Origin: a virus
Strand: one strand, 5' to 3'
IMG/VR virus record: IMGVR_UViG_3300030333_002570
Location: 62,001-126,000 of that record
DNA: 64,000 nt
Every line of letters starts with the position of its first letter. The stretch's first letter is position 1. Shown here piece by piece: positions 3,473 through 56,562 of this stretch. The notes beneath the pieces were generated by a model. It was not told the DNA's origin. It searched no databases and was given only the letters and a program-made list of their open reading frames with translations. The translations under genes and the position numbers were made by a program.

Positions 3473-6400
3473 ATGACAAGTATCAATAAGGTATCACAGG
3501 CAGTCGCTAGGCAGACTCCCGAATTTGTAGAGAACGATTATCCTCTCTTTACCAAATTTCTTGAATATTACTATCAATCTCAAGAAAAGACAGGTTTAGG
3601 TCAAAATATTCTTAATAACTTTCTTGGTTATTTGGATATTGATAAATTGGATATCAGTATATTAGATGGTGCAACAAAGGTAGTAGAAGCGATAAGTGCA
3701 ACGGATGATTCGATAGTTGTTGAAAGTATTGACCAGTTCCTTGATAATGATGGATCTGTTCTTATAGGTGATGAAGTAGTTTATTATGAAAAAGCGGTTC
3801 CTGGTCCTAATATTGCTCTAAGTCCAGGTGTTTCTTATGATCAAGTTAAATTAAAGTGGATTAACCTAGCAAGTCCTCTTTTAAGTTTTGATGATACTAC
3901 TAAGATATTCCCTTTAACATCTCAAGATAATCCTATTGCTCCACCTTCTGTACAACACTTGATTGTTAGTGTTTATGGTAAAGTTTTAATTCCTGGTACA
4001 GATTATAGTATTGAAGGAACAAATATTATATTTACGACTGCTCCTAGAACAAGAATTCCTGCTGATGATGCTTCTTCCACATATATTACCTATTTGAATG
4101 GTTTTAATGAGAATACAATCGTTCCTTTAGATAATATTTCTGGTAGTTTTGGTGAGAGTAAGAGACAATTTACTATTACTAGAAGTGGTGCAAGATATGA
4201 ACCTGTTGCTGATGAATATGTTCTTGCAGTTTATGATAATCGCCTATTAACTCCAAAAGTAGACTTTTTCCTTGATGGTGATCAGTTTATATTCTTAACT
4301 GCTCCATTAAACGGTAGATTCCTTTCATTGTATTCTATTGAAGCACCTATTCCTTCTTTTGGTGCTGGTGCAGTAGGTTATGCACGTATTAGTGACTCTG
4401 GAGAACTAACTGATATTTCTATCAGTAAAAATGGTTCTGGATATAAGTCTGAATATCCTCCACAAATTTCTATTAATACTGAAAATGGTAGTGGTGGTTC
4501 TGCAACTGCTCTTGTTAACGGTATTAAGTCAATATCTCTATTAGAAGGTGGTCAAGGTTATAGTAGTACCAACCCACCTGTAGTTCAAGTTCAAGCACCA
4601 ACTGCTCCTGGATCTACTGCTGCAACTGTAACTGCAACTGTAACTAATGGTGCTGTAAGTGACCTTAAAATCACTAATTCTGGTTCTGGATATACATTCA
4701 CACCTAGAATCACTTTCAAGCAACCTGGAGGTGCTGTATTAGGCGTTCCAACCATTACTAATGGACAAGTTACTGCTGTAAGTATTACTAATGCTGGTTT
4801 TGGATATACAACTGTTCCAACAATCTATATTGATGAACCAACTGGTACAAACCCAATTAAAGCAGCATTTCAGGCAGTTTTAAGTAGTCAAGGTGAAATT
4901 ACATCTATTAATATACTAAATGCTGGTCAAGGGTATACAACTACTCCTAGAATGGCAGTTATTGACCCAGTAGGTGCTCAAGTTCTTGAAACTACTGTTG
5001 ATAATCAAGGTAGAGTAATTAATATTGAATTATTAAGTGGTGGTGTAGGATATACTGATGTTCCTTCTGTTTATATTGTAGATAATAGAGTTGATGCTAC
5101 TGGTGGATATGCTGGTGGAACTGGTGCTGTAGCAACTGCATCAATCTTTAATGGACAAATTACAGATATTAATATTAGTGCTTTTGGTGGTGGATATAGT
5201 CAAACTTCTCCTCCTGTAGTTGTTATTCAAGCACCTCCTGCTGCTGAAGCATCTGCGGAGATTGGTTTGAATGAAGTTACTGGTTTTACAGTAAATCAAT
5301 CTGGTAGTGGGTATCAAAAGTCCCAATTAACTGGATGTGCTCGTGCTGCTTCGTCTATAACTTCATATACTGAAAGTGGTAACGCAGTATTTACAAATAA
5401 TACTAGTGCTGTTGCACATCCTGTAAATGAACCAATTAAGTGCTTAGATGCACTATTTGTTAAAAGATTACTCGATAAGTACACAGAACAGTATTTACCA
5501 GATGTTCCTACGTTAGATTATGCTAAAATTGACGTTAGAACAGCAATTAAGACAATTAAGGACTTTTATAGTTCTAAAGGAACATCATATAGTATTGGAT
5601 ACCTTTTTAAACTACTTTATGGTGAGACAGTAAGTATATCTTATCCTAAAGATCAAATTATCAAACCATCTGCTGCAACTTGGTCTATTGATACTATTTT
5701 GCGTGCTACTTTGGTTAGTGGTGATCCTACAAATATTCAAGATGGTCTTTTAACACAAGAAGCAGATATTGCTGACCTTAATGTTAAAGAAGCAAGTGCT
5801 CTTGTAGAAAATTATATTTCAATTAGAACTTCTGAAGTTACCATTTATGAATTGGTTCTTTCTGAAGAAACTATTGCTGGAACCTTTATTGTTCCATATA
5901 AGACAAAACTTGCAGAACCTTTAGGTAAAGAAGATAGTATTATTACAGTTGACTCTACTATTGGTTGGCCAGAAAGAAACGGTGAATTTATTATTGGAAG
6001 TTCAACTGATACTAGAGAAATTATTCAATATAAGGAAAAATCATTAAACCAGTTTATTGAGTGTACTAGATCAGTAAATGGTGTAGTTGAAGATTGGGAT
6101 TCTGCTACAGAGGTAAAATCAAACTTTAATGTTTATATTAATAAGGGAACTCCTCAAGAAGTAGTGATGAATATTGTTGGTATCGTTGATGCTCAACAAA
6201 CAACTCTTACTGATACTGGATCTTACTACTTACCAGGAGATAAATTAACAGTTTCTAAATTAGGTGGAACTGGAACTACTCCTGAACTTACAACTTGGTT
6301 GTATAATGTTAAAAAATTAATTAGTGTTACTAATGTAGCGTTTGGTGGTATTAATAACCAATCTGCAACTATTACTTGTGCTAATGATCACGGTCTTTTG

Positions 6401-9400
6401 GTAGGAGATCAGGTAACCATTTATGGTGCTAACCCAATTCTTTATAATGGAACATTCCTTGTAACATCTAGAGATAGTGATACTGTTTTCCAATATGCAC
6501 TACCTCAACCTGCAACAGTTATCCCACAGGGTAATATTCTTGTATCTATTGACCTTAATAAGGGTAAATCTACTAGTACTGCAATAAGCAATGCTATTAG
6601 TCCTTATACAACTAACGTTCAAAACTCATTCTTTAATGATAATTACGTTTATGTTGCTTCTACTGGTATTCCAAACTATAATATTGGTCCTTTCCCAGGA
6701 TCTGCTCTTCTTCCTGGTAACCAAAGAAAATTAACAAGATTCCCTAAAGTTCCGACTACTATATCAACTAAAGACCTTATTAGTTCTGGTCCTATTGGTA
6801 CATGGGTAAATGGTGTTTCTGTATGGTCATATAAGTCAAATTTAACTAAGACATTCGGTGCTGTAACAAGTATTGGTATTACAAATGCTGGTTCTGGATA
6901 TGATGCTGCATCTCCTCCTGCTATTACAATTGCTGGTGGAGGAGGTAGTGGTGCTACTGCTTCTGTAGTTGTTGATGGTTCTATTAGTGAAGTTACTGTA
7001 ACTGACGGTGGATCTGAATATACATCCTCACCATTGGTCTCTATAGTCGGTGGAGGAGGGTCTGGTGCTGCTGCAACCGCTATTATCACTAAAGGTGTTG
7101 TTTCACGTATTCTAATTAATTCTGGAGGATCTGGATACACCTCACAACCTCAAATTACTATTGTAGGTGGAGGTGGTTCTGGTGCTTCTGCTACTGCATC
7201 TGTTAGAGGTCCAATTAAGACTATTAATGTTACTTCTGGTGGTTCATCATATACATCTAATCCTACTGTTACTTTAAGTTCTGGTTCTGGTGCTGTTGCT
7301 CAAGCAATTGTACAGAATGGTCGTATTATATCGATTGCTATTATTTCAGCTGGATCTGGATATACTACTGCTCCTGAAATTACTATTCAAGGTGATGGTT
7401 TTGGTGCTGTTGCTAGAGCAACTATTGATGTTGATGGAGAAAATGCAGGTAGGGTTACTAATATTGAAATTATTAATAGAGGTATTGGATATCTTCAAGG
7501 AACCACTATTATTAATTTAAATTCAGTTGGATCTAGTGCATTATTCACTCCAAATGTATTTAAGTGGACTTATAACTTACAATCAACTGCAACTTTAGAT
7601 AGTGCAAAAGGTGGAGTATTTGAAGGATATAATAACCAGTATGGTGGTGAATATGCTCACCTTTCAAACCCACAAACATTAAGATATATTTTAGGTGACA
7701 ACCTTTTTGAATCAACTGGTGGTACAATATTAGAGAAAGAAGATTCTATTGTACACTCACCTATTATTGGTTGGGCGTTTGATGGTAACCCAATCTATGG
7801 TCCTTATGGATACTCTGATCCAACCGATCAAGGTTCTGTAATTACTAGATTGAGCACTTCATATAGAGTTAAAACTGCCCTTGTTTATGACGCTGCTACT
7901 AACCCATACCCAGTTAGGGCTGATGGTCCTTTACTCACAGATACGGATACTAATGGTACTCTATTATATCCAGCTGGTGCTTTCGTTGAAGATTATGAAT
8001 ATGTCTTTGGTTTAGGTGCATTAGATCAATATAATGGTCGTTTCTGTAAAACACCTGATTATCCAACTGGTAGATATTGCTATTTTGTCACTATTGACAA
8101 TACTACTGCTGGTAATCCTGAATTCCCTTATGTTTTAGGACCAAGTTTCAACTCTGTTGTAGATAAGTGGAATTTGAGTACATCTGCTGTTCAACAGAAT
8201 ATTCCTACTGGTGTTGTTCGTTATAGAGACCCATATGAAAATGTTGATATTGATGTAGATAGAGCACCTAACGTTTCTACTAATGCTTTAACAACTGAAG
8301 ATGGTGAAATACTATTATTTGAAGTAGAAGATGAAGATAGAAGTGGTGTTATAGATCAGGTAGAAATAGATGATCCAGATCAAATCTTTGAAGAATCACC
8401 TTTACAGTTATTTGATTACTTCCCTAAAGTAACATTTGATTCTAAAGTTGATATTGAAGTTGAAACTATTACTAAATTTGAAGATGCTTCTGTAACTGGA
8501 TTTACTATTGAAAACCCAGGTATTAACTATCAGGTTAATGACCGTTTAAACTTTGATAATGAAGGAACTGACGGTACTGGTGTTTCTGCTCGTGTTTCTA
8601 GAATTAAGGGTGAAGCAGTCGAAAGTTATACTTTTGAAAACATTAGTGGACAAAATTTCGGTGTTTTAAAGACTACAGAACCACATAATTTAGTAGTTGG
8701 AGATAGTGTTTTTGTAACTTATAATCCAATAATGAACAACACAAATAAAACTTTTGTTGTTCGTCAATTTAAAGGTATTGAAGAAATTGTTGTTAATCAA
8801 ACTGGTTCTGGTTATAATTCTGATATTCCTCCAACAATTACTATTGATAGTGCTACTGGAAGTGGTGGGGAATTACAAGCAGTTGTAACTTCTGTTGGAT
8901 CTATTGAAAATGTTAATATCTTAAATTCTGGTTCTGGATATACAACAAACCCTCGTGTTATACTTTCACATCCACAGGTCTTTAAGAAAGCAGATTACTA
9001 TGTTTCTAAGATTGATAATAATAATTACGTTAAAGTAAATGATGTTGTTGTTAATACAAACAAAGAAGTCTTTATTTGTGGTAAAACAAAAGATGCAAAT
9101 GGTAATAATGTTGGATTTGTTTCTAAATTATCTGCAACTGGTGTTAAAGAGTGGGAGAAAACTCTAGAACTTACTAGTGGACAACAGTACTGTGAATTTG
9201 AAAAACTTTATGTTGATGGAAATGATGTTTGGGTTGTTGGTAATAATAGACCAGAAAGCAATCTTTTAGATGCATATAACCCAGATGTTATTCTGGCAAA
9301 GTATACTCAAGCAGCAAATGGTCTTGCTGCTACATTGGCATTCCAGAAAGGATATGCTGGTATTTCAGGTTCTACTCGTGCTGATTCTGTAACTGCTATT

Positions 9401-28150: not shown

Positions 28151-29377
28151 ATGGCTAAACAACTATTAAGTCTTGGTACTAATGCTAACGACAACACTGG
28201 AGATACTCTCCGTGCTGGCGGTGATAAAGTTAATGACAATTTTAATGAATTATATACTGCTCTAGGTAATGGTACAGATTTAACCATTAGTCTCGCTTCT
28301 GCAGGTAGTGGTCAGGTATTGCGATATAATGGAACAAACTTTGTTGCGTCAGATTATTTAAATTTAACTTCTGCTTTAGATGTTAATAGTAATTCAATTA
28401 TATCATCATCTAATGGGAATATTAATATTGCTCCCAATGGAACTGGCAATGTAACTATTGGTAATGGAAGTATTACTAATACTTTCAATGGAACTGATGG
28501 AACAATAGATTTTCCAACGAAAGTAAAATATAAAAATGAATTTAGCACACTTGCTAGTGCTCCTGCTGCTGCGACATACACAGGATATTTCTTTACAGTT
28601 GATGGTGATGACAACCCATATGTAAATATTAATATTACTGCTGGTGGTGCAGGTGATGTGCAAGCAAAAGTTTTAACACAGTATTCTAGTGTTGATCTTT
28701 TAAAAGATATTGATATTACTACTGCAGCACCTACTGAAGGACAAGTCCTAAAGTGGAGTGTTAGTGGGGGTAAATTTGTTCCTGGTGATGATGCTGCTGG
28801 TGCTAGTCAACAAAACCTATGGGCAACTGTTGGTGGTGATACTGGTACAACAAGTGCTAATACTACAACAGATACATTAACTATTGCTGGTGGAACTAAT
28901 ATTACAACAGCAGTATCTGGTGATACACTCACAGTAAACTTTGATGGAACTCTTGTTACAACTTTAGCATCCTTAACAGATGTTGATGTTTCTAGTGTTG
29001 TTCAAGGTGATTCATTATTCTGGAATGGAACAAATTGGACTAAAACAAGAAGTCCTATTACATGGTGGGAATTAGGTTCTAACGGAAGCACAGACTATAC
29101 TATTGATGGACCTGGGTTTGCTTCTGCAACTAATGATCCAACTCTTTATGTAAGTAGAGGTTTTACCTATGCTTTTGACAATACTACAATGGGTGGTGCT
29201 CATCCTTTTAGAATACAGAGCACACAGGGTTTAACTGGAACTCCATATACTGCTGGTCAATCTGGTAGTGGAACTAGTGTTCTCTATTGGACTGTCCCTA
29301 TGGATGCTCCATCAACACTGTATTATCAGTGTACTCTCCATGCTGCGATGCAAGGACAAATTAACGTTGTAAGTTGA
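28151..29377 (+). CDS. Virion structural protein with C-terminal cupredoxin-like domain
   Basis: A 408-residue protein. The N-terminus (TNANDNTGDTLRAGGDKVND, residues 9-28, then NFNELYTALG) is a module common at the start of cyanophage tail and fibre proteins. The middle is beta-rich and Thr/Asn-rich, with an NGTGNVTIGNGSI-type fibre segment. The last 95 residues are cupredoxin-like: a DPTLYVSRGFTYAFDN strand pair, His351 in AHPFRIQS, and a ligand loop YYQCTLHAAMQG with Cys394, His397 and Met400. That is the ligand order of a type-1 copper site, although Met follows His by three residues rather than the five of plastocyanin. A structural role, with or without copper, is inferred. Just 5 nt separate it from the next gene. 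Confidence 0.7.
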   Translation: MAKQLLSLGTNANDNTGDTLRAGGDKVNDNFNELYTALGNGTDLTISLASAGSGQVLRYNGTNFVASDYLNLTSALDVNSNSIISSSNGNINIAPNGTGNVTIGNGSITNTFNGTDGTIDFPTKVKYKNEFSTLASAPAAATYTGYFFTVDGDDNPYVNINITAGGAGDVQAKVLTQYSSVDLLKDIDITTAAPTEGQVLKWSVSGGKFVPGDDAAGASQQNLWATVGGDTGTTSANTTTDTLTIAGGTNITTAVSGDTLTVNFDGTLVTTLASLTDVDVSSVVQGDSLFWNGTNWTKTRSPITWWELGSNGSTDYTIDGPGFASATNDPTLYVSRGFTYAFDNTTMGGAHPFRIQSTQGLTGTPYTAGQSGSGTSVLYWTVPMDAPSTLYYQCTLHAAMQGQINVVS

Positions 29378-29382
29378 TATAA

Positions 29383-32300
29383 ATGGCAAGAACTGTTCCT
29401 GGATCTGGTGCTGTAATTAACCCAATTTTCGATGAAACTTTTGGCGTTAAAGCAGTAGAAGTACTAAACGGTGGGTCTGGTTACTCGGTATCAGATCCTC
29501 CTAAACTTTCTGTAACTGGATGTGGAACTCCAGATACAGAAGCACTTCTTTATCCTATCATTGATGAAGATTCAGGAAAGATTATACATGTTAGGGTTCT
29601 GAATAGAGGTAGTGGATATGATCCTTTACGATTACAAATTATTCCACAGGATGAAACTCCTAATGTCGTAACTTCTTTTGATATCAATAGAATATGGCAA
29701 TCACATCCCAACTCTACAACTACTGGTGCATTTGTTAATTCTACTGATAGATTAGCTATTGCATCAGACAATCATCCAAAACCTACTTGGACACAAGCAG
29801 AGGCAGCTCCAGGTGGCGGACCTTTAGTAGATAGATCATTTAGTCAAACTTTTGTTTATAGAGGTGGTAAAGACGTTCCTAATCCTGGTACTAGAGAAAA
29901 TCAACCAGATAAGGTTCTTGGTATTTTAGCGAATGGTGGATTATTACATACTCCAGAATGGGGTCCAGATGGTAATGCTCCTCCAGGACATTCTATTGAT
30001 GCGGTTAAAAATAATTACGTTAAAAGTAACGATGCTTATGATGTTGTTACTGAAAATAATATCAAATATTATCATTCAAATAAACTTATTAATGAATTTG
30101 AATTAGATAATGGTGTATTTGATTGGGGTCTTTTAAGACCATTTACTTGGAATATTAAAGTAGAATATGATAATATTATGCTAACAGTTACTAATGTTGA
30201 TGAGACATTAGGATCTATTGAAGTTGGTAGATTAGTTGATGAAATTGCTGGAAATGCTAGAGGTGAAATATCTAAAGTTGTTAGAAATAATCAGGGTGTT
30301 GTAACAAGAGTATATCTTAGAGATCTTGCTGATTCTGCAACATTTTCTCAGGGTGATGGATGTTTAGGATCTAATGGATTTAACTTTACTATTAGTGAAC
30401 TTCCTAGAACATTTACAGATGGTGTTTTCTATATTGATTTTGGAACAGAAGCAAGTGAGTTTGGTGCATTTACTCCAGGAAAATATTATATGTCTCCTGA
30501 GAACATTAAAGTTCAAAGGAATTATTTGATTATTTGGAATCAATCTGATAGTTCTAATAGTCATGGTGCTGATGGTCATCCAATGAGATTCAGTACTACT
30601 CCAGATGGTCCTTTAAATTCAAGTCCTGGTACACTTTATTATAAGAGCACTGGAGTAACACAAGCACCAGCTGCTGATTATGAAAACATATATCAACCGT
30701 TATTCATAATGAATGCGGATGAGTCGGCAAAGATTTATTATCATTGTGCATATCACAGATATATGTCTGGATATGAAGGTGATGAAGGATATATGATTTT
30801 TGATTCTACAGTTGATAATACTGCTAGACCAAATACTTATTATACTGATAATTTTTATCAAAGTGATTCAAACGATCCTGCGACTATTGATCGTGCAAGA
30901 CATACAGATGGACATTCTAAGATCTTGGGTATGTCTTATGATGGATATCCCATTTATGGTCCTTATGGATATGGTTCAGGAACTGGTGTTCTTACTATAA
31001 CAGGGTATGGAGGAAATAATGGAATTGGATATGGTCAAAATAATTCTGCATTATCTACGGTAAATATATCGGCAGGTGGATCCACCCTTGGAACAGGATC
31101 AGGTCTTAAAGTAAAATGTACCTCAGTAGGTAGCAATGGAACAGGACTTGCATTTGAAGTTGTTGAACTAGGTTCAGGATATGCTGTTGGTGATAGATTT
31201 AAAATTATCCATGAAAATCCCAATGGAATTTTTAGTTATGGATATACAAGTGGTCAGAATGATGCAGCAAGAACTCCTGGAACATATAATGTAGATATTA
31301 CCACTGCTATGACTAGTGGAAATGGTAATTCTGCAAGAGCGTTAGTTGTAGTTGCTGTTGGTGGTAATACAGATGTTACATTCCCTAAAACTACTGAGGA
31401 TTGGACTGGTAGAGGAAGGGATTTTGCTGAAAATGAAACTATTACAATTCCTAATTCATTAATAGGTGGTGGTGCAGATATCGTCATTAATGTACAAGAT
31501 CTTATTGATGATGGTTGGCAGGCTATTAATGAAGTTACTGCTGTAGGTCAGGGTGCTTCAAGAGAAACTTCAGGATATCGTTTAAAAACATCTTTAGAAT
31601 TAGCTGGTAATAGACCTGTAGTTACAACAGCAAGCACAGTAAATTATACTGTCACTTCTTCTAATGGAAAATATCTCTTTAACGGATCTTCTCCATCGTT
31701 CTTAGGTTTAGAACGTGGTAAAACTTATGTCTTTAATTTAGATAGTGCTACTAATGATAGTCAGCAATTATTGATAGGAATAAATGAAGATGGTTGGCAT
31801 AGTCAAAACCCTGTTGTAATTGGAGATACTACACAGTTATTTGGTGGACCAGGTATTACCTATACTATAGATGGTTCTACAGTATCATATACTGGTTATC
31901 TAACTGGATTTAACGGAGCAACGACAAGATCAGTTACATTCCAAGTTCCTGCAACTGCACCAGCTGCATTGTACGTATTTGCATATACTACTGCTGGTTA
32001 TGGAGTTAGAACTGTTCAAGATGGTTATCTCTTAGGAGATTTGATTGATGATAATATATTTGATGAATCTGTTCTTTGGGATAGTGGAACTGCTTATGTT
32101 ATAGGTGAGACTGTTAAAAACTCATCTAATGTAATTTACGAAGCAACTGCTGCTATTAGTAGTGGAGGATCACAACCTGTTCATACTACTGGAACTACTA
32201 GTAATTGGAAGTTCCTTGGAACAAAAGGAACTTTAGATGCTTATAATGGTAAATTTGCAGTAACCCCAGAATATCCTAATGGAACATATGCTTATTATAT

Positions 32301-34284
32301 GATTGAGGATAGTAGTGGTAATCCTGTTTATCCATATGCTATCGGTCCTAGATTTTACGGGACACCTTTATTTGAGAATGATGCTGTTCCTCCAGCACCT
32401 TCAATATTCCCAACTATTGCAGAGGGTGATGTTGTTTTAAGTACTGATAATCCTGGACAAGTATCTTATATTAAGATGACTAAGAAAGGTGATAATTTCT
32501 TTGGTGCTGCTAATGCAAGAATACTTGGTGGAGAAGGAACGGGTGCTACAGGAACACCTACTGTTCAAACAGTTACTGGTCTTTCATTAATTAATCAAGG
32601 TAGAAACTATGCAACTCCTCCAACACTTATCTTTGAAGGTGGTGGTGGACAAGGTGCTCAAGGTGCTGCTGAAATTGATACATTAGGTAAAGTTACATCT
32701 ATTAGTATCGTAAATCAAGGTGAATATTATGATGAACCTCCTTATATTTTAATCACTGGTGGTGGAGGTATAGGTGCTAAAGCGGAAGCAACTGTATCTC
32801 AAGGTAAAATTATTGATATTACTGTTACTGAACCAGGTGAAAGTTATACTGGTTCTCCTAATGTTATCTTTACAAAACTTGTTAATCTTAAACGTAAGAC
32901 AAGAGCAAGACAGGCATTTAACTCATCTAATATATTCTTAACTGGTCTTACTAAAACAGTTTCACCATCAGATACAACGATATATGTTAATTCTACAGAT
33001 GCTTATCCAGGATCTGGTACTATTATTATTAATAGAGAAACTATTACTTACACTTCTAAATCAAGAGAAAAATTTACTGGTGTAACTAGAGGTGTTAACT
33101 TTAATTATGATCAGAGAATTATACTTGATGCTGGTCAGAATAATAACGAAGGTATTTCAACATACCAATTCCAAGTTGGTGATAGAGTTATTAGAAAGGT
33201 TGAAAATGCTGCAAACAAGGTTGCTAAAGTATATGACTGGAACCCTTCAACTAGAGAACTATTAGTTGTATTTGAAATTGATGAATTAGCATTTATTGAT
33301 GGTGGATTACCTTCTACAGAAGATGCAATAGTTCAGTTTGATGCTGGTGTTGCTGCTTCTGCTCCAAGTGGATTCCAACCTCATGTTGTTTTACAAACAG
33401 CAAATGAAGTAGGTCAAGTGATACCACTTTTAACTGCACCAACACTTACAACATTACAGGATGCAGCATTTGAAGATAATGATGAACAAGATGGTGCAGG
33501 TGATGGTATCGCTGATTTGGTAAATACTGGAACAGACTTTGAGAACCAAATCAATCTTGATGGTGGTATATACAGTTCTCTATATGGTATTGAAGCAACT
33601 CAGGGTGGTCAAAACACTACTCTATTCCAAGTTGGTGATAATATTAAGGATGGTTCAATACCATTTAAATATGCTACTGTAGGGACTGCAGGTGCTCTTG
33701 CAGATGGTGTAGACCATACAGCACTAGTAAAACTATACTTAGATGCTAATAATGCAAATGGTCAAAGTTTCAGTGTTAATGAAGTTGTAACAGGTAATAT
33801 TTCTGGAGTTATTGGAACTGTTGTTACTTGGGATCCTGTAGAGGTAAGTCTTACTGTTAAAGATATTGTTCCTTATAACACAGGTGATGTTAATGTTGGT
33901 GTAAATGGTTATTTACATAAATTCTCTGAGAAGGGTACTATAGTTGATTTCTATGTTCAAACAGCAGGTACTAACTATACAGCAGTTCCAACATTAGCAG
34001 TTGAAAATATTGGTGATATACAGGCAACTGGAACCGTTAATATGACTACTGCAGGTGACCAAGTTGCAAGTATTACTATAACTAACGGTGGTTATGGTAT
34101 TACACAATCTGTAGATGGATCATATAACCTTCATCCTACAGTAACATTTAATAATGCAGCAGGTGATACCACTGGTGCAGGTGCTAAAGCATATGCAATT
34201 ATGGGTGGAGAAAACATCGTTGGTAATGGTGGTGCAACTTATCGCATCAAATCAATTGAATATACTACACAGGTTCGTTCGTAA
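29383..34284 (+). CDS. Virion structural protein with cupredoxin-like and interrupted YHYH domains
   Basis: A 1,633-residue protein, probably tail or baseplate-associated from its context. It begins with two GSGY units (residues 26-85). A cupredoxin-like domain follows, with His399 (GHPMRFSTT) and loop YYHCAYHRYMSG carrying Cys455, His458 and Met461. A YHYH-type motif (MSYDGYPIYGPYGYGSG) lies at about 520-537, but its usual second half (YNGKFAVTPEYPNGTYAYY) appears only near residue 950. About 400 residues are inserted between them, including a second cupredoxin-like fold without Cys or His ligands (YLFNGSSPSFLGLERGKTY). Further GSGY units with GGGG turns, an RG-type module (INRETITYTSKSREKFTGV) and a beta-rich C-terminus follow. 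Function is not established. Confidence 0.7.
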   Translation: MARTVPGSGAVINPIFDETFGVKAVEVLNGGSGYSVSDPPKLSVTGCGTPDTEALLYPIIDEDSGKIIHVRVLNRGSGYDPLRLQIIPQDETPNVVTSFDINRIWQSHPNSTTTGAFVNSTDRLAIASDNHPKPTWTQAEAAPGGGPLVDRSFSQTFVYRGGKDVPNPGTRENQPDKVLGILANGGLLHTPEWGPDGNAPPGHSIDAVKNNYVKSNDAYDVVTENNIKYYHSNKLINEFELDNGVFDWGLLRPFTWNIKVEYDNIMLTVTNVDETLGSIEVGRLVDEIAGNARGEISKVVRNNQGVVTRVYLRDLADSATFSQGDGCLGSNGFNFTISELPRTFTDGVFYIDFGTEASEFGAFTPGKYYMSPENIKVQRNYLIIWNQSDSSNSHGADGHPMRFSTTPDGPLNSSPGTLYYKSTGVTQAPAADYENIYQPLFIMNADESAKIYYHCAYHRYMSGYEGDEGYMIFDSTVDNTARPNTYYTDNFYQSDSNDPATIDRARHTDGHSKILGMSYDGYPIYGPYGYGSGTGVLTITGYGGNNGIGYGQNNSALSTVNISAGGSTLGTGSGLKVKCTSVGSNGTGLAFEVVELGSGYAVGDRFKIIHENPNGIFSYGYTSGQNDAARTPGTYNVDITTAMTSGNGNSARALVVVAVGGNTDVTFPKTTEDWTGRGRDFAENETITIPNSLIGGGADIVINVQDLIDDGWQAINEVTAVGQGASRETSGYRLKTSLELAGNRPVVTTASTVNYTVTSSNGKYLFNGSSPSFLGLERGKTYVFNLDSATNDSQQLLIGINEDGWHSQNPVVIGDTTQLFGGPGITYTIDGSTVSYTGYLTGFNGATTRSVTFQVPATAPAALYVFAYTTAGYGVRTVQDGYLLGDLIDDNIFDESVLWDSGTAYVIGETVKNSSNVIYEATAAISSGGSQPVHTTGTTSNWKFLGTKGTLDAYNGKFAVTPEYPNGTYAYYMIEDSSGNPVYPYAIGPRFYGTPLFENDAVPPAPSIFPTIAEGDVVLSTDNPGQVSYIKMTKKGDNFFGAANARILGGEGTGATGTPTVQTVTGLSLINQGRNYATPPTLIFEGGGGQGAQGAAEIDTLGKVTSISIVNQGEYYDEPPYILITGGGGIGAKAEATVSQGKIIDITVTEPGESYTGSPNVIFTKLVNLKRKTRARQAFNSSNIFLTGLTKTVSPSDTTIYVNSTDAYPGSGTIIINRETITYTSKSREKFTGVTRGVNFNYDQRIILDAGQNNNEGISTYQFQVGDRVIRKVENAANKVAKVYDWNPSTRELLVVFEIDELAFIDGGLPSTEDAIVQFDAGVAASAPSGFQPHVVLQTANEVGQVIPLLTAPTLTTLQDAAFEDNDEQDGAGDGIADLVNTGTDFENQINLDGGIYSSLYGIEATQGGQNTTLFQVGDNIKDGSIPFKYATVGTAGALADGVDHTALVKLYLDANNANGQSFSVNEVVTGNISGVIGTVVTWDPVEVSLTVKDIVPYNTGDVNVGVNGYLHKFSEKGTIVDFYVQTAGTNYTAVPTLAVENIGDIQATGTVNMTTAGDQVASITITNGGYGITQSVDGSYNLHPTVTFNNAAGDTTGAGAKAYAIMGGENIVGNGGATYRIKSIEYTTQVRS

Positions 34285-43625: not shown

Positions 43626-46600
43626 ATGGCAAATAGAATTCAATTAAGAAGAGGTGGTGCTCAAGATTGGGCTAACTCTAACCCAACCTTGGCACAAGGC
43701 GAATTAGGTATTGAACTTGATACTGGTAGATTTAAAATAGGTGATGGTGTTACCGCATGGAACACTTTAAGATATGAGCGTCCTGTTGAGTCTACATCTA
43801 ATACCGCAAATACATTAGTACAACGAGATGCAGATGGTAATTTCTCTGCAGGTACTATTACATCAACCATTATTGGTAACTCTTCAACTGCTTCAAGACT
43901 TGCATCTGCTAGACAGATAACTTTATCAGATGACATAGTAGGATCTGGTGTTTTTGATGGTTCTGCCAACCTCACTATATCTACTGGACTACAACTAATT
44001 TCAACTCTACCTCATTATGATGGAACTGCTGGTGCTTCTGCAACTTATACAAAGGTAACTGTAGACGCAAAAGGTAGAATTACAAATGCTTCAACACCTT
44101 CAACTCTTGCTGATTATAACCTTAATGGAACTGTAGAGGGATCATCAGCTCAACCATATGATTTAGACTTAGTTGCAATAGCAGGTCTTACTACTACTGG
44201 TATTATTGCTAGGACTAGTGGTGGTGCTATGTCAACCAGAACTATTACTGGTACTGCTACAAGAATTGGTCTGACCAATGGTAATGGTGTTTCTGGAAAC
44301 CCAACCATTGATCTTATTACTACTGCTGTAACAGCAGGTGATTATAATACAGAATCTTTAACTTCTGTTAGTGGTGCTGGTAGTGGTGGAGAACCTTTCG
44401 GAACTGAAACTGTAAACGCTACGAAATTTACAGTTGACGCATATGGTAGACTAACTAGTGCAACCAATGTGCCTATTGCAACAGCAGTAGAAGGAACAGA
44501 TGCAGCAGCATACAACGCAGCAACGACCTATTCCAGAGGTGATAGGATCACTAATGCATCGAAACTTTATCAAGCCATTGCAGGTATCTCGGCAGGAGCT
44601 GGAGCACCTACTCATTCAGATACTAGTGATGCTGGATCGTGGAGACACCTCGGTGCAGTTACGACAAAACAAAAAGGTCTCGCTTCCTTTGCTCAAGAAG
44701 ATTTTGATGTATCTGCAGGGGGTCACGTTAATATCGCTGCTGCTGGTGTTGACAATTCTCAATTACAAAACAGTCGAATTTCCTTTGCTGACGGCAACGC
44801 AAAAGAGGACTTTGACCTTGACCAAGAATTAACTGCTACTACAGGATATCGTGGATTCAATAAACTCAACTATATCAAGATTAATGATACAAGCGGTAAT
44901 CTACTGTTTGGTGCAAATAATACGGGTGATAGTGGTGCTGGAGAGGTTGATATTAACGTCAGATCCTATTTCAGTGATCCAGACATTACCCTCAACGCAT
45001 CGACTTCACAAACTTTAGACAAGATTGGTGATGGTAATCTAACATTTCAGACTACACAGAACTCATCTTCTGCTAGATCATTAAGTATACTTGCAACTAA
45101 CTCTGGTGCTGGTGCTAGTAATATTGTTATAACTGCTGAAGATAAGGTTACTATTACTGCTTCAGAAGGAACTAACGGTAAAGTACAAGTAGAAGACACA
45201 TACTTCCAAGGGGACTACATTGCTTCCTCTGCTGCCACTATGATCCTTGATCCTGGTGATGACAGGGCAACCAGTGGTAAAGTTCAAATAATGGGGGACT
45301 TACAAGTAGATGGAACGACTACAACAATTAATTCAACCGTTACTACGGTGGATGATCCTATCATTACTCTTGGCGGTGATACTGCTCCAGGTTCGGATGA
45401 CAATAAGGACAGAGGAGTTGAATTCAGATATTACGACGCTTCAGCAAAAATTGGATTCTTTGGTTACGATGATTCGGCCGCTGATCTTGGAGGACATACA
45501 GGAGCATTTACATTCCTCTACGATGCCACAAATACCTCAGAAGTATTCACTGGAACAGATGCAGGGATCATCGCTGGTAACTTAAAACTTACAACAAATA
45601 CTAACTCAACATCTAATACTACTGGAGATTTGGTAGTAGCAGGTGGTGTTGGTATTGGTGATGATGTTAATATTGGTGGACTATTAGATGTAGACGGTAC
45701 ATTCCGTGCTAATAGCACATCTAGATTTGATGATAATATTGTATTCCAAGGTGCTTCTAAGACTTTAGAACTTAAGAATGGTTCAGGAACTACTAAGACT
45801 ACACTTCATACCACAACAGGTAATGCAGAATTTGGTGGTATAGTAACAGTAACAGGTAACACAGATTTAAATTCAAACTTAAACGTAGCATCTCTAGTTC
45901 ATCTCGAATCAACTGATGAACCTAATATTGCTTTAAATGGTGGAACAAATCTTTATGAGATTCAAAGTTCTGACTATGGTGCATTAAGAGTAGATGGTGG
46001 TGGATACGTTGATAAAGATATTCTCTTTAATGGAGACATTTATATAAACGGTGATCTTAACCAGAGAGATAGTGGTACTGAGAGTTGGGGATTCAGGAAC
46101 TGGTTGCAGGTCAGATATAAGGGAAGATTTGGTTCAAGTGTTGCTTACAACCCAACTTATGCTACACATAACACTTCTAACTTAAGAGTGTATGGTGGTG
46201 CTGGTGTTGCTCAAAATTTACATGTTGGTGCTACAGGATCTGGAGAAGGTTTCTTTGTTGGTAAGAAAAACTCTGGAGACACAGTTAAGTTTAGTGTTCT
46301 AGGTGCTTCTGGTGATACAACTATTGTTGGTGATCTTACAGTTAACTCTGCTGTTGACTTTGACACTACTTTAAACGTTGATGGTGCTGCTACATTCCAA
46401 GATAATGTTACTATCAATGCTGATAATAAAATGTTTACTATCGAGAATAACTCGGCAGTAGACCAATTTACAGTTGATACAGATAATGGTAACACATATG
46501 TTGGTGGATCATTAACAGTTGATGATGCTGCTGAATTAAATTCAACATTAAATGTTGATGCTGGTGCTACATTCCAAGACAATGTTACGATTAACGCAGA

Positions 46601-49600
46601 TAATAAATTCTTCAAAGTCCAGAATAATTCAAGTGTTGACAAGTTTACCGTTGATACAGATAACGGCAACACTGTTATCGCTGGCACTCTTGACGTTACT
46701 AGTAATGTCGGTATCGACGGAAACTTTGATATTGCTACTTCTAAGTTTACTGTTGCTGCTTCTACTGGTAATACTGTTATTGACGGAACTGTTGATATAG
46801 ATGAGCAACTTACAGTTACTTCTGGAGTCACAATAAATGACGCTAATAAAACATTTACGATCCAGAATGGGGCTGGTACTCCTGTTACTAAGTTTGAAGT
46901 TGATACTGACAACGGTAATACTAACATCATTGGTACACTCACCGTTGGTGATGCAACTCAAATCAATGATACCTTCGGTGTTTCTGGTGTAGTAACAGCA
47001 ACAAATAACACAGAGCAAACTCTAACAGGTTCATATGCTGCTGATGGTGCTGGAAGATTCTCTGGTGGTATTGGTCTTGCTAAGAACCTTGCGGTTGGTG
47101 GTAGTGCTAGAATATATGGTAACACTGAATTAACAGGATCACTTGATCTTAATAGTAGTGCTGATATATCTGGTGCTTTAGTATGTAATGATAATGTGAA
47201 CATCAAAGCAGACAATAAGATGTTTACTATTGAGACTGCTGCTGGTGTAGATAAGTTTACAGTTGATACCGACAATGGTAATACTGATATTCGTGGAACA
47301 TTAGATGTTGGTGGAGATATAACTGCTGAATCTAATTTCACTGTTACAGGGAATCTTACAGTCAATGGAACAACAACACAAGTCAATAGCACAGTTACCA
47401 CTTACGACGACCCTATTATTACTTTGGGTGGTGACACAGCACCAGGATCTAACGATGGTAAGGATAGGGGTGTTGAATTCCGCTATTACGATGGCTCTGC
47501 AAAAATCGGGTTCTTCGGATATGACAGATCAACCTCCGAATTTGCATTCTTAACAAGTGCATCTAACTCTTCTGAAGTATTAACAGGAACTGATGGTGCT
47601 TTAAGAGTTGGATCAGTTCATGTAACTGGTGCAGGTACTTCATTAGATGTAGATAATAATTTAAATGTAGATGGAACAGCAACAATAGATGGTCAAATAA
47701 CTTCTAATCTTGCTGATGGAACTGCTCCATTCGTTATTACATCTACAACTAAAGTTAATAATCTAAACGTTGACCGTTTGGATAATATGACAACTGCAAG
47801 TGCAAACACTGCATCTACAGTTGTTAACAGAGATTCTTCTGGAGACTTTGCTGCTAATCAAATTACTGCTGCTAGTGCTGCTGGTGCTGGTGCAGGTTTC
47901 TTAGGTAATGCATCTTCTGCTGATGTTTGGAAAACTGCTAGAACACTCACTATTGATGGTGTAGTAGATGGTTCGGTTTCCGTCACTGGTGGAGCAGACT
48001 TTACGGTTACTACTACCTTTAATGACGCTGATATTACTGCCTTGGCAGCGATGAGTGGCACAGGATATGTTGTAAGAACTGCTGCAAATACATACGCACA
48101 AAGAACACTTGCTGTAACAGCATCCTCTGGTATTACTCTTACTAATGCTGATGGAGTTGCTGGTAATACAACTATTAACGTTGCTTCTGCAAGCACAAAC
48201 GCTGCAAATAACTTAGTCATACGTGACGGATCTGGTGACTTTGCTGCTAATGAGATTACTTCAGACTTAGTTGGTAACCTTACAGGTGCTACTTCTACTG
48301 CTAAGAATCTTAACCCTGCTGCTGATAGCACATACGATCTTGGAACTAATACAGTTCGTTGGCAAACTTTATATGCAGATACTGTAAATGCAACCACATA
48401 CGTTGGTTCTCTTACAGGTACTTCTTCTGATGCTGCTGCGATTACGGTTGCTGATGAGTCTGCTGATACATCATGTAATGTGGTATTTGTTACTGCAGCT
48501 ACTGGATCACTTCCTCCTAAGACAGGAACTAATTTAACCTTTAATTCTAGTACTGGAAATCTTGCTGCTACTACCTTTACAGGTCTTGTAGTTGGTGATG
48601 TTACAGGTGATGTTACAGGTAATGCTGACACCGCAACTCTTGCTTCAACAGTTACTGTTGCTGACGAGTCAACTGATACTTCATGTAATGTTCTTTTCAC
48701 AACTGCTGCTACTGGTTCTCTTGGAGTTAAGAGTGGAACTAATCTAACTTTTGATTCTGCAAATGGAGTTTTAACTACTACTTCTGTAACTGGAAATCTA
48801 ACTGGTAATTTAATTGCTACAACATCTACTGCTAAGAATATTAATCCTGCTTCTGATAGTGCTCATGATCTAGGATCTAACACTGTTCGTTGGCAGAATG
48901 TGTATGCAGATGCTGCTAATATCACTGCTATAACAGGAACCTTAACTGGTACTGCATCCAGTATTGCTAATCATGATACTGATGCACTATCTGAAGGATC
49001 AACTAATCTATACTTCACTAATGAGCGTGTAGATGATAGATTGAATGATGTTATCGTTGCTGGTACAGGTGTTACTAAGGTTTACGATGATGCTGCTAAC
49101 ACATATACTTTATCTGTTACTCAGGCAGACATTGATACTGATAACATAACAGAAGGAGGTAACAATTTATTCTTCACTAATGAAAGAGTAGATGACAGAC
49201 TTAATTCTGTTATTATAGCAGGTACTGGTGTTACTAAGGTTTATGATGATGCTGCAAATACTTACACATTATCTGTAACTCAAGCAGACGTTAACTCTGA
49301 TAACATAACTGAGGGATCAACAAATCTCTTTACAACTGCTGCAAGAACAAGAACACACTTTACATATGGAACTGGTATTACTCATAGTACTGGAACTTTA
49401 TCGGTCACACAGGCAGATATTAATACAGACAATGTAACTGAAGGATCTACAAATCTATTCACAACTGCTGCTAGAACTAGAGGACACTTTACATATGGCA
49501 CAGGTATTACACATAGTTCAGGTACTCTTAGTGTTACTCAGGCAGACATTAATACTGATAATATAACTGAAGGATCTACAAACGTATTCTTTACTAACAC

Positions 49601-51449
49601 TCGTGCAGACGCAAGAGTGGCTGCTGCTACTGGTGCAAACTTAGATCTATCAAGTAAGTCTACAACTGACCTTTCTGAAGGAACTAATCAATACTATACA
49701 GAAGCAAGAGTTCAAGCAAAACTTGACAATGCTTATGAACAACTAAGAGCAATGTTGAATAACCTTGCTACTGCAACAACACTAAAACTAAATCTATCTG
49801 GAGATCCAACTCCTGGTGCAGTTGTAACTCTTGGATCTATCTCTAATGGTGGTCTTGGTGGATACACTGCTGGAACAAATGTTGCTACTACAGGTGGAAC
49901 TGGATCGTCATTAACAGTTGATACTACAGTAACAAATGGTGCTATAACTGGAATTGCTTTAAACACTGCAGGTACTGGTTATCTTATTGGTGATACAATC
50001 ACAATTACTAACCCTAATCTAGGTGGTGTTAAGACACTTAACCTTGGATCACTATCTAACGGTGTTGGTGGATTTACTTCTGGAACTGCTGTTGCTACTT
50101 CATCCTCTGGATCAGGAACTAATTGCACAGTTGATACAACTGCTGATGGCAACGGTGCTATTACTAACGTAGTAATTAACGCTGCAGGGTCTGGTTATGC
50201 CATTGGAGAGACCTTAACCATTACTAACCCTAACGCAGGTGGTGTAGCAACCGTAGACACGCTTGTAGGTGGCACAGGATATGCTAATGGAACTGCTATT
50301 GCTACTACAGGTGGTGGAGGATCAAATTTAACACTTGATCTTACAACCTCTAATGGTGTGGTAACTGGAGCAACAATTAATGCTGCTGGTACAGGATACG
50401 CTGTAGATGACACAATCACTATTGTAAATGCTAATGCAACTGGTATTAGGACTCTTGGTTCTATAGCAACTGCTGGAACAGGATATGCTAATGGAACTGC
50501 TATTGCTACTTCTGCTTCTGCTTCTGGATCTTCTGCAACTGTTGACATTACAGTTGATGGATCTGGTGCTGTAACAGGTGTCACAATTAATGATGATGGA
50601 ACAAACTATGCTGCTTCTGAAGTATTAACAATTACTAACGCTAATGCATCTGGAGTTAAGACTCTTGGAACTATCTCTGCTGCTGGTACTGGTTACACTG
50701 CTGCAAATGGAGTTGCTACAACTTCATCTGGATCAGGAACAGGATTGACTGTTGACATTACAGTTTCTGCTGGTGGTGTTGCTACTGTCGCAATTAATGA
50801 TGATGGATTAAATTATGCAGCATCTGAAGTAATTACTATCACTAATGCTAATGCAACTGGTGTTAAGACTCTTGGATCAATCACTGCTGCAGGAACTGGA
50901 TATACAGAAGGAACTACTACTGGAGTTGCTACAACTTCATCTGGATCAGGAACAGGACTAACAGTCGATGTTACTGCTGATGCATCAGGAAATGTCACTG
51001 GAGTTGCAATTAATGATGATGGATTGACTTATGCAGCATCTGAAATTATAACTATATCAGGTAGTGGTAATGGTGATGCAACCATAACGGTATCTGCTAT
51101 TCATGGAAATGGAGCACAGATTCCAGTATCCGCTATACATGGTAATGGATGCACAATTCCTGTATCTGCTATTCATGGAAATGGAGCAACAGTTGATGTT
51201 GCTACAATCTATGCTAATGCAACAGTTAATACTTCTACAGTATTCACTAATGCAACCTTTGCACTTGCTGACATCACAACGATGGAAATTGGTGCAACAG
51301 TAACTGGAGCAACCTCTGGTACAACTGGAGTTATAACTGCTATGGATGCGACTTCAGTCACAGTTGATAATGTTGATGGTTTCTACAAAAAAGGAGAAAC
51401 CGTTGGTGCTAATGATGTCACTAATCTGACTATAAGTTCATTCGGATAA
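43626..51449 (+). CDS. 2,607-residue repetitive tail-fibre-like protein
   Basis: The N-terminus (NRIQLRRGGAQDWANSNP, then LAQGELGIELDTGRFKIGDG) is the short attachment module found at the start of many tail fibres and the Mtd tropism protein. Repeats follow. A long module containing DDPIITLGGDTAPGS appears twice (about residues 562-615 and 1247-1300). ADNKxFxIxNxxxVDKFTVDTDNGNT units occur at about 930-1240, TADESxDTSCNVxF units at about 1600-1700, and xNLFFTNERVDDRLN/VTQADINTDN units at about 1785-2025. GTGY-type units run over about 2065-2480, then three SAIHGNG units and a C-terminal GETV module. No chaperone or enzymatic domain is visible. It is probably a trimeric fibre or whisker contacting the host surface. 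It stands alone between a terminator and the neck genes. Confidence 0.8.
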   Translation: MANRIQLRRGGAQDWANSNPTLAQGELGIELDTGRFKIGDGVTAWNTLRYERPVESTSNTANTLVQRDADGNFSAGTITSTIIGNSSTASRLASARQITLSDDIVGSGVFDGSANLTISTGLQLISTLPHYDGTAGASATYTKVTVDAKGRITNASTPSTLADYNLNGTVEGSSAQPYDLDLVAIAGLTTTGIIARTSGGAMSTRTITGTATRIGLTNGNGVSGNPTIDLITTAVTAGDYNTESLTSVSGAGSGGEPFGTETVNATKFTVDAYGRLTSATNVPIATAVEGTDAAAYNAATTYSRGDRITNASKLYQAIAGISAGAGAPTHSDTSDAGSWRHLGAVTTKQKGLASFAQEDFDVSAGGHVNIAAAGVDNSQLQNSRISFADGNAKEDFDLDQELTATTGYRGFNKLNYIKINDTSGNLLFGANNTGDSGAGEVDINVRSYFSDPDITLNASTSQTLDKIGDGNLTFQTTQNSSSARSLSILATNSGAGASNIVITAEDKVTITASEGTNGKVQVEDTYFQGDYIASSAATMILDPGDDRATSGKVQIMGDLQVDGTTTTINSTVTTVDDPIITLGGDTAPGSDDNKDRGVEFRYYDASAKIGFFGYDDSAADLGGHTGAFTFLYDATNTSEVFTGTDAGIIAGNLKLTTNTNSTSNTTGDLVVAGGVGIGDDVNIGGLLDVDGTFRANSTSRFDDNIVFQGASKTLELKNGSGTTKTTLHTTTGNAEFGGIVTVTGNTDLNSNLNVASLVHLESTDEPNIALNGGTNLYEIQSSDYGALRVDGGGYVDKDILFNGDIYINGDLNQRDSGTESWGFRNWLQVRYKGRFGSSVAYNPTYATHNTSNLRVYGGAGVAQNLHVGATGSGEGFFVGKKNSGDTVKFSVLGASGDTTIVGDLTVNSAVDFDTTLNVDGAATFQDNVTINADNKMFTIENNSAVDQFTVDTDNGNTYVGGSLTVDDAAELNSTLNVDAGATFQDNVTINADNKFFKVQNNSSVDKFTVDTDNGNTVIAGTLDVTSNVGIDGNFDIATSKFTVAASTGNTVIDGTVDIDEQLTVTSGVTINDANKTFTIQNGAGTPVTKFEVDTDNGNTNIIGTLTVGDATQINDTFGVSGVVTATNNTEQTLTGSYAADGAGRFSGGIGLAKNLAVGGSARIYGNTELTGSLDLNSSADISGALVCNDNVNIKADNKMFTIETAAGVDKFTVDTDNGNTDIRGTLDVGGDITAESNFTVTGNLTVNGTTTQVNSTVTTYDDPIITLGGDTAPGSNDGKDRGVEFRYYDGSAKIGFFGYDRSTSEFAFLTSASNSSEVLTGTDGALRVGSVHVTGAGTSLDVDNNLNVDGTATIDGQITSNLADGTAPFVITSTTKVNNLNVDRLDNMTTASANTASTVVNRDSSGDFAANQITAASAAGAGAGFLGNASSADVWKTARTLTIDGVVDGSVSVTGGADFTVTTTFNDADITALAAMSGTGYVVRTAANTYAQRTLAVTASSGITLTNADGVAGNTTINVASASTNAANNLVIRDGSGDFAANEITSDLVGNLTGATSTAKNLNPAADSTYDLGTNTVRWQTLYADTVNATTYVGSLTGTSSDAAAITVADESADTSCNVVFVTAATGSLPPKTGTNLTFNSSTGNLAATTFTGLVVGDVTGDVTGNADTATLASTVTVADESTDTSCNVLFTTAATGSLGVKSGTNLTFDSANGVLTTTSVTGNLTGNLIATTSTAKNINPASDSAHDLGSNTVRWQNVYADAANITAITGTLTGTASSIANHDTDALSEGSTNLYFTNERVDDRLNDVIVAGTGVTKVYDDAANTYTLSVTQADIDTDNITEGGNNLFFTNERVDDRLNSVIIAGTGVTKVYDDAANTYTLSVTQADVNSDNITEGSTNLFTTAARTRTHFTYGTGITHSTGTLSVTQADINTDNVTEGSTNLFTTAARTRGHFTYGTGITHSSGTLSVTQADINTDNITEGSTNVFFTNTRADARVAAATGANLDLSSKSTTDLSEGTNQYYTEARVQAKLDNAYEQLRAMLNNLATATTLKLNLSGDPTPGAVVTLGSISNGGLGGYTAGTNVATTGGTGSSLTVDTTVTNGAITGIALNTAGTGYLIGDTITITNPNLGGVKTLNLGSLSNGVGGFTSGTAVATSSSGSGTNCTVDTTADGNGAITNVVINAAGSGYAIGETLTITNPNAGGVATVDTLVGGTGYANGTAIATTGGGGSNLTLDLTTSNGVVTGATINAAGTGYAVDDTITIVNANATGIRTLGSIATAGTGYANGTAIATSASASGSSATVDITVDGSGAVTGVTINDDGTNYAASEVLTITNANASGVKTLGTISAAGTGYTAANGVATTSSGSGTGLTVDITVSAGGVATVAINDDGLNYAASEVITITNANATGVKTLGSITAAGTGYTEGTTTGVATTSSGSGTGLTVDVTADASGNVTGVAINDDGLTYAASEIITISGSGNGDATITVSAIHGNGAQIPVSAIHGNGCTIPVSAIHGNGATVDVATIYANATVNTSTVFTNATFALADITTMEIGATVTGATSGTTGVITAMDATSVTVDNVDGFYKKGETVGANDVTNLTISSFG
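48982..49710 (+). repeat. Tandem fibre repeats (FTNERVDDRLN / SVTQADINTDN)
   Basis: Five or six units of about 40-50 residues, alternating between FTNERVDDRLN with VTKVYDDAANTYTLSVTQAD and TTAARTRxHFTYGTGITHS with GTLSVTQAD. Units share an xDNxTEGxxNLF linker. The last unit ends in LSEGTNQYYTEARVQAKL. This repeat class is common in marine phage fibres. Confidence 0.85.
49815..51065 (+). repeat. Tandem GTGY / ITNANATGVKTLGSI repeats
   Basis: About seven units of roughly 55-60 residues, each with TLGSIxxAGTGYxxG, then VATTSSGSGTGLTVD, then VAINDDGLxYAASE, then TITNANA. The last three or four units are the most alike, suggesting recent expansion at the 3' end of the block. Confidence 0.85.
51088..51198 (+). 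repeat. Three short SAIHGNG repeats
   Basis: Three 12-residue units (VSAIHGNGAQIP, VSAIHGNGCTIP, VSAIHGNGATVD) in direct succession. The first and third are nearly identical in DNA (TATCTGCTATTCATGGAAAT). They place a His in each unit at regular spacing, reminiscent of the metal-binding HxH positions of fibre needle tips, though here each unit has a single His. Confidence 0.8.
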
Positions 51450-56020: not shown

Positions 56021-56185
56021 ATGTCCCACTATACCGTCGGTTATCACGACAATCAGAGACATATGCAGGAAATTTGCACATATGCACATGATGCATATGA
56101 AGCAATCCAAGACGTAAGGGAGGATGTATCGTACATACACGATCATCCTCATTCTATTGACTATGTTTTGCTCGATAGAGCATGA
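56021..56185 (+). CDS. Small conserved cyanophage protein (54 residues)
   Basis: A short gene. The protein begins SHYTVGYHDNQRHMQEICTY, continues with AHDAYEAIQDVREDVSYIHD and ends HPHSIDYVLLDRA. The arrangement (a YTxGYHD strand, then a helix with AHxAxEAIxxxxEDVxY, then HP) resembles a small protein family I recall from many T4-like cyanophages; function unknown. Its TGA overlaps the petE ATG (ATGA), so it is probably translated together with plastocyanin. WGAG-type spacing (TGGAG at 56005-56009) gives a plausible ribosome site. Confidence 0.8.
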   Translation: MSHYTVGYHDNQRHMQEICTYAHDAYEAIQDVREDVSYIHDHPHSIDYVLLDRA

Positions 56186-56562
56186 CATACATAAAAAAGA
56201 ATCATCAAATTATTACTATGTGGTTGACAAGGTTTATAGCATGGGTGCTAGTATTTGCATCATTAATAACGGTATCAGGAACAGCATATGCTGCTGATAC
56301 TATACAAATGGGTTCAGGAGGAAATCTAATCTTTGAACCTAATGAACTTACAGTTAAAGTAGGTGATACAGTTACATTCGTGAATGGTGAATTACCTCCT
56401 CACAATGTAGTATTTGCTGATCACGATGAGTTATCTCATCCCGATTTAGCATTTATGAGTGGAGAGCAATTTCCAGTTACATTTAATGAAGCAGGAGATT
56501 TTGAGTTTCAATGTGATCCTCATGCTGGTGCAGGTATGAAAGGAGTAATCCACGTTGAGTAA
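56182..56562 (+). CDS. petE: Plastocyanin
   Basis: A 126-residue precursor of the copper protein that carries electrons from cytochrome b6f to photosystem I in the thylakoid lumen. The type-1 copper ligands are all present: His74 (LPPHNVVF), Cys111, His114 and Met119 (CDPHAGAGMKG). A signal peptide with hydrophobic core (WLTRFIAWVLVFASLI) ends in AYA before ADTIQMG, so export to the lumen is expected. The first ATG lies in an ATGA overlap with the previous gene; a second ATG (56218, residue 13) would give a more compact signal peptide and cannot be excluded. Cyanophage petE is a known host-derived gene thought to sustain electron flow during infection. Confidence 0.95.
   Translation: MTYIKKNHQIITMWLTRFIAWVLVFASLITVSGTAYAADTIQMGSGGNLIFEPNELTVKVGDTVTFVNGELPPHNVVFADHDELSHPDLAFMSGEQFPVTFNEAGDFEFQCDPHAGAGMKGVIHVE

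Follow-up and report, generated by a model that had tools for sequence, protein, structure and literature searches.

Do two neighboring baseplate proteins of a T4-like cyanophage carry complete metal-binding sites of the kind found in blue copper proteins? The question is raised by a 64,000-nucleotide stretch (the window), bases 62001–126000 of the 130,092-base IMG/VR virus record IMGVR_UViG_3300030333_002570. Within the window, a 408-residue protein assigned by homology as gp9 is followed by a 1,633-residue protein assigned as a baseplate wedge subunit. The genes, domains, and ligand codons of these two proteins, as well as the petE gene, are on the plus strand. An initial annotation, made from the letters of the window, had proposed a cupredoxin-like domain with a full set of His, Cys, His, and Met ligands in each of these tail-region proteins. 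The analysis bears out the two complete cupredoxin-type sites, their conservation, and the predicted fold of the gp9 domain; the predicted fold of the domain in the second protein is less secure. Both domains appear to hold an intact mononuclear metal site with the make-up of a type-1 copper center, and the predicted four-ligand site shows very little variation among hundreds of marine viruses related to this one. The favored reading as a whole, an intact type-1-like metal site that likely holds copper and serves a structural or docking role, is given a probability of about 0.6.

Cupredoxin Domain of gp9

The C-terminal domain of gp9 comprises residues 301–408 (108 residues; 29051–29374). His351 (29201–29203), which is part of an HP motif, and Cys394, His397, and Met400 were all found at the positions proposed in the initial annotation, the last three within the CTLHAAM segment of residues 394–400 (29330–29350). 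Cys394 is the sole cysteine of the window gp9, and His351 and His397 are its sole histidines; all three are proposed ligands. Among 81 gp9 orthologues, a single cysteine is present in 73, and exactly one cysteine and two histidines are present in 48.

The structure of this domain was predicted using AlphaFold2, as the initial annotation had suggested. A mean predicted local distance difference test score (pLDDT) of 95.5 and a predicted template modeling score of 0.87 were obtained. In the model, the strand of residues 91–96 ends at Cys96, the next strand starts at residue 103, and His53 is located just before the strand of residues 55–58 (model numbering). This order of strands and ligands is the cupredoxin arrangement. 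The best match of the model in the PDB is the N-terminal cupredoxin domain of Cu nitrite reductase, with a Z score of 10.6 and a root-mean-square deviation of 2.2 over 93 residues. Further matches are to rusticyanin (Z of 9.5), auracyanin A (Z of 8.1), and small laccases (Z of about 8). Taken together, the sequence comparisons and the model indicate that the domain almost certainly belongs to the cupredoxin fold and family, with the Greek-key β-sandwich topology of that group.

By structure alone, the fold of the gp9 domain also matches the Pithovirus and Marseillevirus metagenome "Beta-sandwich proteins" A0A481Z6J5, A0A481YWX9, and A0A481Z7Q7 in BFVD, with template modeling scores of 0.66–0.70. 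In Synechococcus phage S-ShM2 (locus L089), gp9 is annotated as two overlapping open reading frames (ORFs), 7079–7480 and 7377–8321, an arrangement that resembles a frameshift in the gene or in the sequence.

Relation to Known Copper Proteins

A profile of 25 phage domains was used to search all of the PDB sequences. The expectation values (E) are 2.1e-8 for Cu nitrite reductase, 1.1e-5 for plastocyanin, 1.4e-5 for amicyanin, and 3.1e-5 for rusticyanin. Pseudoazurin and auracyanin are also found, and the best 60 matches are all cupredoxin-fold copper proteins. The profile is needed for this result, and a phmmer search of the PDB with the single gp9 domain gave no match. In the profile alignments, Cys, His, and Met line up with their counterparts in amicyanin, as do the full set of four ligands with those of plastocyanin 2plt, whose ligand His is aligned with His351. 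The phage domains contain the conserved His, Cys, His, and (Met) at cupredoxin ligand positions by which a type-1 (blue) copper site is recognized.

The CxxHxxM spacing was found in both window proteins (CTLHAAM and CAYHRYM), in agreement with the initial annotation, where it had been contrasted with the CxxHxxxxM loop of plastocyanin. The difference is real, but it is not a mere departure from plastocyanin; the spacing equals that of amicyanin, with which the PDB alignments are in register. The loop of amicyanin, Cys92-His95-Met98, is the shortest natural type-1 copper loop. The HPxR motif that had also been described occurs in the two window proteins, as HPFR and HPMR, but does not hold as a general motif. 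Of the 194 divergent domains, 97% have Pro after the upstream His, and the fourth residue may be R, Q, W, Y, E, or K. An HP sequence at the upstream ligand is the type-1 (T1) motif of multicopper oxidases; in small blue copper proteins, HN is the usual form. The phage site combines features of two known subtypes, the amicyanin loop and the HP of the multicopper oxidases.

Judged from sequence by the criteria of the families themselves, the phage domain is not an amicyanin, a plastocyanin, or a multicopper oxidase. Amicyanin (TIGR02657; PDB 1sfd and 1aac) shares the cupredoxin fold and a CxxHxxM loop of identical spacing, but amicyanin carries electrons for methylamine dehydrogenase and has HN, whereas the phage domain is part of a virion protein and has HP. 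The window gp9 domain scores 12.8 bits against NCBIfam TIGR02657, for which the cutoff is 110.2, and weak matches to this family appear in 13 of the 25 phage domains. Plastocyanin, including the product of the petE gene of the phage, shares the fold and the four ligand types, and its upstream His and CxxH are aligned with those of the phage domain. The loop of plastocyanin is, however, two residues longer, and plastocyanin is a soluble photosynthetic electron carrier encoded by a separate gene. Neither the CxxHxxxxM loop nor a score above the PF00127 cutoff, the two marks of a plastocyanin, was found for the window gp9 domain, which has no match to PF00127 at E ≤ 1 (the best value among its relatives is 5.7e-4). 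A profile comparison of the petE plastocyanin with the phage tail domains gave an E of 7.7e-4, with the ligand His aligned.

The N-terminal cupredoxin of the three-domain Cu nitrite reductase (PDB 6tfo and 2dv6) and rusticyanin provide the best structural matches, but these proteins are enzymes or electron carriers rather than parts of a virion, and the identity is about 20–23%. The T1 domains of multicopper oxidases (laccases) have HP at the upstream T1 ligand and are among the structural matches (Z of about 8); their T2/T3 HxH motifs and longer Cys-His-Met loop are absent from the phage domain. The HxH motifs of the T2/T3 cluster were not found in gp9, where H351 and H397 are the only histidines. 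Matches of the phage domains to the Pfam families At5g54830, ribosomal L31, Filamin, and Ig were below cutoff or scattered and were rejected.

Second Domain in the 1,633-Residue Protein

The cupredoxin-like domain of the 1,633-residue protein spans about residues 369–480 (30487–30822) and was identified by the phage-domain profile, by profile–profile comparison, and by a moderate model. Its putative ligands are His399 (30577–30579) and the Cys455, His458, and Met461 of the CAYHRYM segment of residues 455–461 (30745–30765). These residues are also located where they had been proposed, and all four are invariant in the alignment of the relatives of this domain. When the genome of the virus was searched using a phage-domain profile built without the 1,633-residue protein, the domain was found with an E of 5.2e-7. 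Profile–profile comparison of the gp9-type phage domains with this domain gave an E of 3.9e-9, with the ligands in register. This non-overlapping comparison supersedes an earlier run (E = 8.8e-18) in which three rows were common to both alignments. By these comparisons, the two domains are homologous. The HP...CxxHxxM pattern lies far beyond chance, as judged from the profile matches to the second domain and to the PDB cupredoxins. A pLDDT of 68.5 and a best Z of 5.3 were obtained for the model of the second domain, and the top PDB rows are cupredoxin-fold proteins. Because this evidence for the fold is weaker, the cupredoxin assignment draws chiefly on the homology of this domain with that of gp9.

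A third, degenerate copy of the domain at residues 752–878 (31636–32016) has none of the four ligands. This copy was detected by the iterated profile and, weakly, by the 25-domain profile (E = 0.0055). The orthologues in other loci are also ligand-free, and the third copy therefore appears to have lost the site while the neighboring copy kept it.

Two other identities were considered for the second domain. The profile of this domain, used alone, provided matches to antibodies that are due to a YYCA stretch and were judged spurious. The YHYH domain (PF14240) is found in the same protein, but the His/Cys/His/Met stretch by itself gives no YHYH match.

Conservation of the Proposed Ligands

In the first viral scan, His, Cys, His, and Met were kept in 48 of 48 unique gp9 domains. 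An iterated profile was then used and divergent phage records were fetched, to reach beyond close relatives. In the alignment of the 25 phage domains, which are 25–80% identical to the domain from the window, the only invariant columns are His53, Tyr94, Cys96, His99, and Met102, that is, the four proposed ligands and one Tyr. The rows of this alignment were picked for a complete-looking site, and 194 unique divergent domains were hence scored without that selection. The upstream His is kept in 97% of these domains, Cys in 95%, the second His in 94%, and Met in 95%. The patterns used to collect them held Cys and the second His but not the upstream His or Met, and the percentages for the latter two are thus less biased. 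All four ligands are present in 243 of the 263 complete unique domains. Conservation across homologues had been made the main test of the proposal in the initial annotation, and the outcome is strongly in its favor. The ligand codons vary synonymously (CAT/CAC and TGT/TGC), while the encoded residues of gp9 stay fixed.

The axial Met is replaced in rare relatives, by Ser in locus L011 (CKNHAYS) and by Gln in an inserted extra domain of locus L077. The axial position is known to vary among type-1 sites, and Gln is the axial residue type of stellacyanin. The extra cupredoxin-like domain of L077 (ORF from base 3270, residues about 410–533) is inserted within the orthologous domain and contains the sequence CHYHTGQ.

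In one group of tandem domains, both His and the Met have all been replaced by Tyr at once. ORFs of about 1,108 residues in loci L160, L163, L171, and L175 contain tandem copies, one with three ligands replaced, mostly by Tyr, and another with Ser/Ala at the Cys/His positions. These ORFs constitute a natural series of site loss.

Distribution of the Domain

The gp9 domain alone was found in 368 of 50,697 phage records, mostly from Synechococcus and Prochlorococcus phages, and the site appears to be near-universal in gp9 of T4-like cyanophages. The domain is also present in phages of Pelagibacter and Methylophilales, which are non-photosynthetic hosts. The protein from the window resembles T4 gp9 in the N-terminal gp9/10 domain and in gene position, and differs from it in the C-terminal domain. 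In the scan of phage records, the enterobacterial T4-like phages match whole gp9 through its N-terminus, but the cupredoxin domain was not found in any of them when it was searched for alone.

Other virion proteins contain the domain, including the proximal tail fiber of P-SSM2, a virion protein of S-TIM5, a podovirus tail fiber, and a tail fiber of Pelagibacter phage Mosig. In S-H9-1, it forms the C-terminus of a subtilisin-like protein. Up to four copies per genome occur in the phages that were checked. The domain is at the extreme C-terminus in most of the proteins, although contig ends may truncate a portion of these ORFs.

A scan of GTDB genomes identified relatives chiefly in marine Bacteroidetes. 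These include small one-domain proteins that have a signal sequence and a lipobox-like cysteine, and in which the HP...CxxHxxM site recurs. Three of the secreted bacterial relatives were scanned, and none of them reached the cutoff of any Pfam family. The small secreted family, often lipoprotein-like (loci L270, L272, L274, L290, L298, L304, and L308), is found in marine Flavobacteriia and in some Acidobacteria and Bdellovibrionales.

The initial annotation had pointed to a real plastocyanin gene in the same genome as a sign that copper is supplied. The gene is real, but it is not a requirement for the domain. Because the domain is also present in Pelagibacter and Methylophilales phages and in Bacteroidetes, it is independent of a photosynthetic host and of a plastocyanin gene in the phage itself.

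Proposed Metal Site and Alternative Explanations

In the proposed mechanism, the His that precedes strand 4 and the Cys, His, and Met of the short CxxHxxM loop joining the final two strands would together bind a single metal ion in each domain, with copper the likeliest. The metal would pin the ligand loop and stabilize the small β-barrel. The barrel itself would function as a terminal docking or adhesion module where the baseplate meets the tail fibers, and not in long-range electron transfer. The domain is viewed as such a module because it is mostly located at the extreme C-terminus and recurs in fibers and connectors. The copper may be acquired in the host or, after release, from seawater. 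Because apo-cupredoxins take up copper readily, loading would not be confined to the host and could also follow lysis, in seawater. It is judged probable that the site binds a metal in the virion, and more likely than not that this metal is copper; a main role in structure or docking is given even odds.

Several observations count against this assignment. Copper is scarce in the bacterial cytoplasm, where virions assemble. The phage domains are below cutoff for every cupredoxin family in Pfam and NCBIfam, and the upstream His is followed by Pro rather than by the usual Asn of small blue copper proteins. The terminal position fits metal-free adhesion equally well, and some copies without ligands evidently persist, although these are a minority. 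The very low free copper of the cytoplasm would be accommodated if the cupredoxin scaffold had been kept with zinc or another cytoplasm-supplied metal, in a purely structural role like that of the metal ions elsewhere in phage tails. The known metals of tail tips and fibers in phages are zinc and iron. One Cys, two His, and an axial Met are nevertheless the classic type-1 copper set, Met is kept at 95%, and zinc sites normally need no Met; this explanation is considered unlikely. A precedent for a metal in phage tails is provided by the YHYH domains, a type that neighbors the cupredoxin-like domain in the 1,633-residue protein and is predicted to bind Zn2+ (PMC7824862).

It is less likely still that no metal is bound and that the conservation of His, Cys, and Met reflects only packing and hydrogen bonding, with the cupredoxin-like sandwich serving to bind carbohydrate or protein. 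The same mobile domain decorates many fiber and adhesin-like proteins, and a ligand-free degenerate copy is located inside the same 1,633-residue protein. The four residues are, however, the only invariants besides one Tyr and are found at the cupredoxin ligand positions. The ligands are also mostly lost together rather than singly, which packing alone does not predict. Among the 20 domains without the full set, 18 lose two or more ligands and 2 lose exactly one, whereas independent loss predicts about 51 with one missing; kinship among the sequences inflates this contrast, but its direction is clear. The intact copper-type site with a structural or docking role must finally be set against a redox-active or metal-sensing center that detects copper or the redox state at the surface of the cell, or exploits host copper uptake, and helps to trigger adsorption or contraction. 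Type-1-like sites are redox-active in the characterized small blue copper proteins, and T4 gp9 couples fiber binding to baseplate triggering. Metal-mediated tail attachment has been proposed for iron in the Ferrojan Horse idea, which is reportedly built on iron in tail proteins. No redox partner, receptor, or conserved interaction patch was identified for the phage domain, and hosts that range from cyanobacteria to Pelagibacter and Methylophilales give no pointer to a single copper receptor; such a function is improbable. In its strongest form, which is slightly less probable again, marine T4-like virions would bear an array of redox-active type-1 copper centers that act in adsorption and gate baseplate triggering through redox or copper sensing. 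One center may reside in gp9 and one in the neighboring wedge subunit, with many per baseplate if the T4 copy numbers hold. Redox control of baseplate triggering would be of a kind not known for any phage.

Annotation and Implications

In the databases, these phage proteins are annotated as baseplate or hypothetical proteins. A search of the open-access literature gave no paper that describes a cupredoxin or plastocyanin-like domain in the tail or virion of a phage. With this assignment, segments of numerous virion proteins currently listed as "hypothetical" acquire a named domain, and attention is drawn to a parallel family of small proteins secreted by marine Bacteroidetes.

The conserved site suggests that metal ions are built into these virus particles. 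The T4-like cyanophages rank among the ocean's most abundant viruses. With the site loaded, their virions would be copper-containing particles, with a bearing on virion stability, on the effects of copper on infection, and on the amount of copper that is kept in and released from viral particles. In the virions of S-SM1, 41 proteins have been detected (PMC3037559).

Genome Context

The genes around both sites constitute the baseplate and tail operon of a T4-like cyanophage, and both domains are, by homology, placed in baseplate proteins. The 408-residue protein (28151–29377) matches PHROG 677, "baseplate wedge tail fiber protein connector", over residues 1–407 with an E of 9.1e-193. It also matches Pfam T4_gp9_10_N (PF07880) with an E of 2.7e-9 and 37.8 bits, above the cutoff of 25 that marks the N-terminal domain of the gp9 connector. 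The T4 gp9/gp10 chains are matched by phmmer, and the closest named relatives are gp9 of S-SSM5, S-RIM4, P-RSM4, and others, at 70–74% identity. By these matches, the protein is gp9, the connector between the baseplate wedge and the tail fiber of a T4-like cyanophage. The 1,633-residue protein (29383–34284) is identified as a baseplate wedge subunit from its match to PHROG 708 (2,320 bits) and contains a YHYH domain (Pfam PF14240; E = 2.6e-11). Downstream of this gene are a gp8-like wedge protein and a DUF4815 protein. The separate plastocyanin gene petE (56182–56562; Pfam Copper-bind, E = 3.6e-20) is about 27 kb downstream and is not part of the tail domains.

Two other large genes are present in the window. 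A single ORF of 8,217 residues occupies positions 3473–28126 (24.6 kb, about a fifth of the record) and contains many internal repeat units; it matches PHROG 701, "virion structural protein", and tail-fiber families. A 2,607-residue protein is encoded at positions 43626–51449, and its N-terminus is a Major tropism determinant N-terminal domain (PF18454; E = 1.4e-12).

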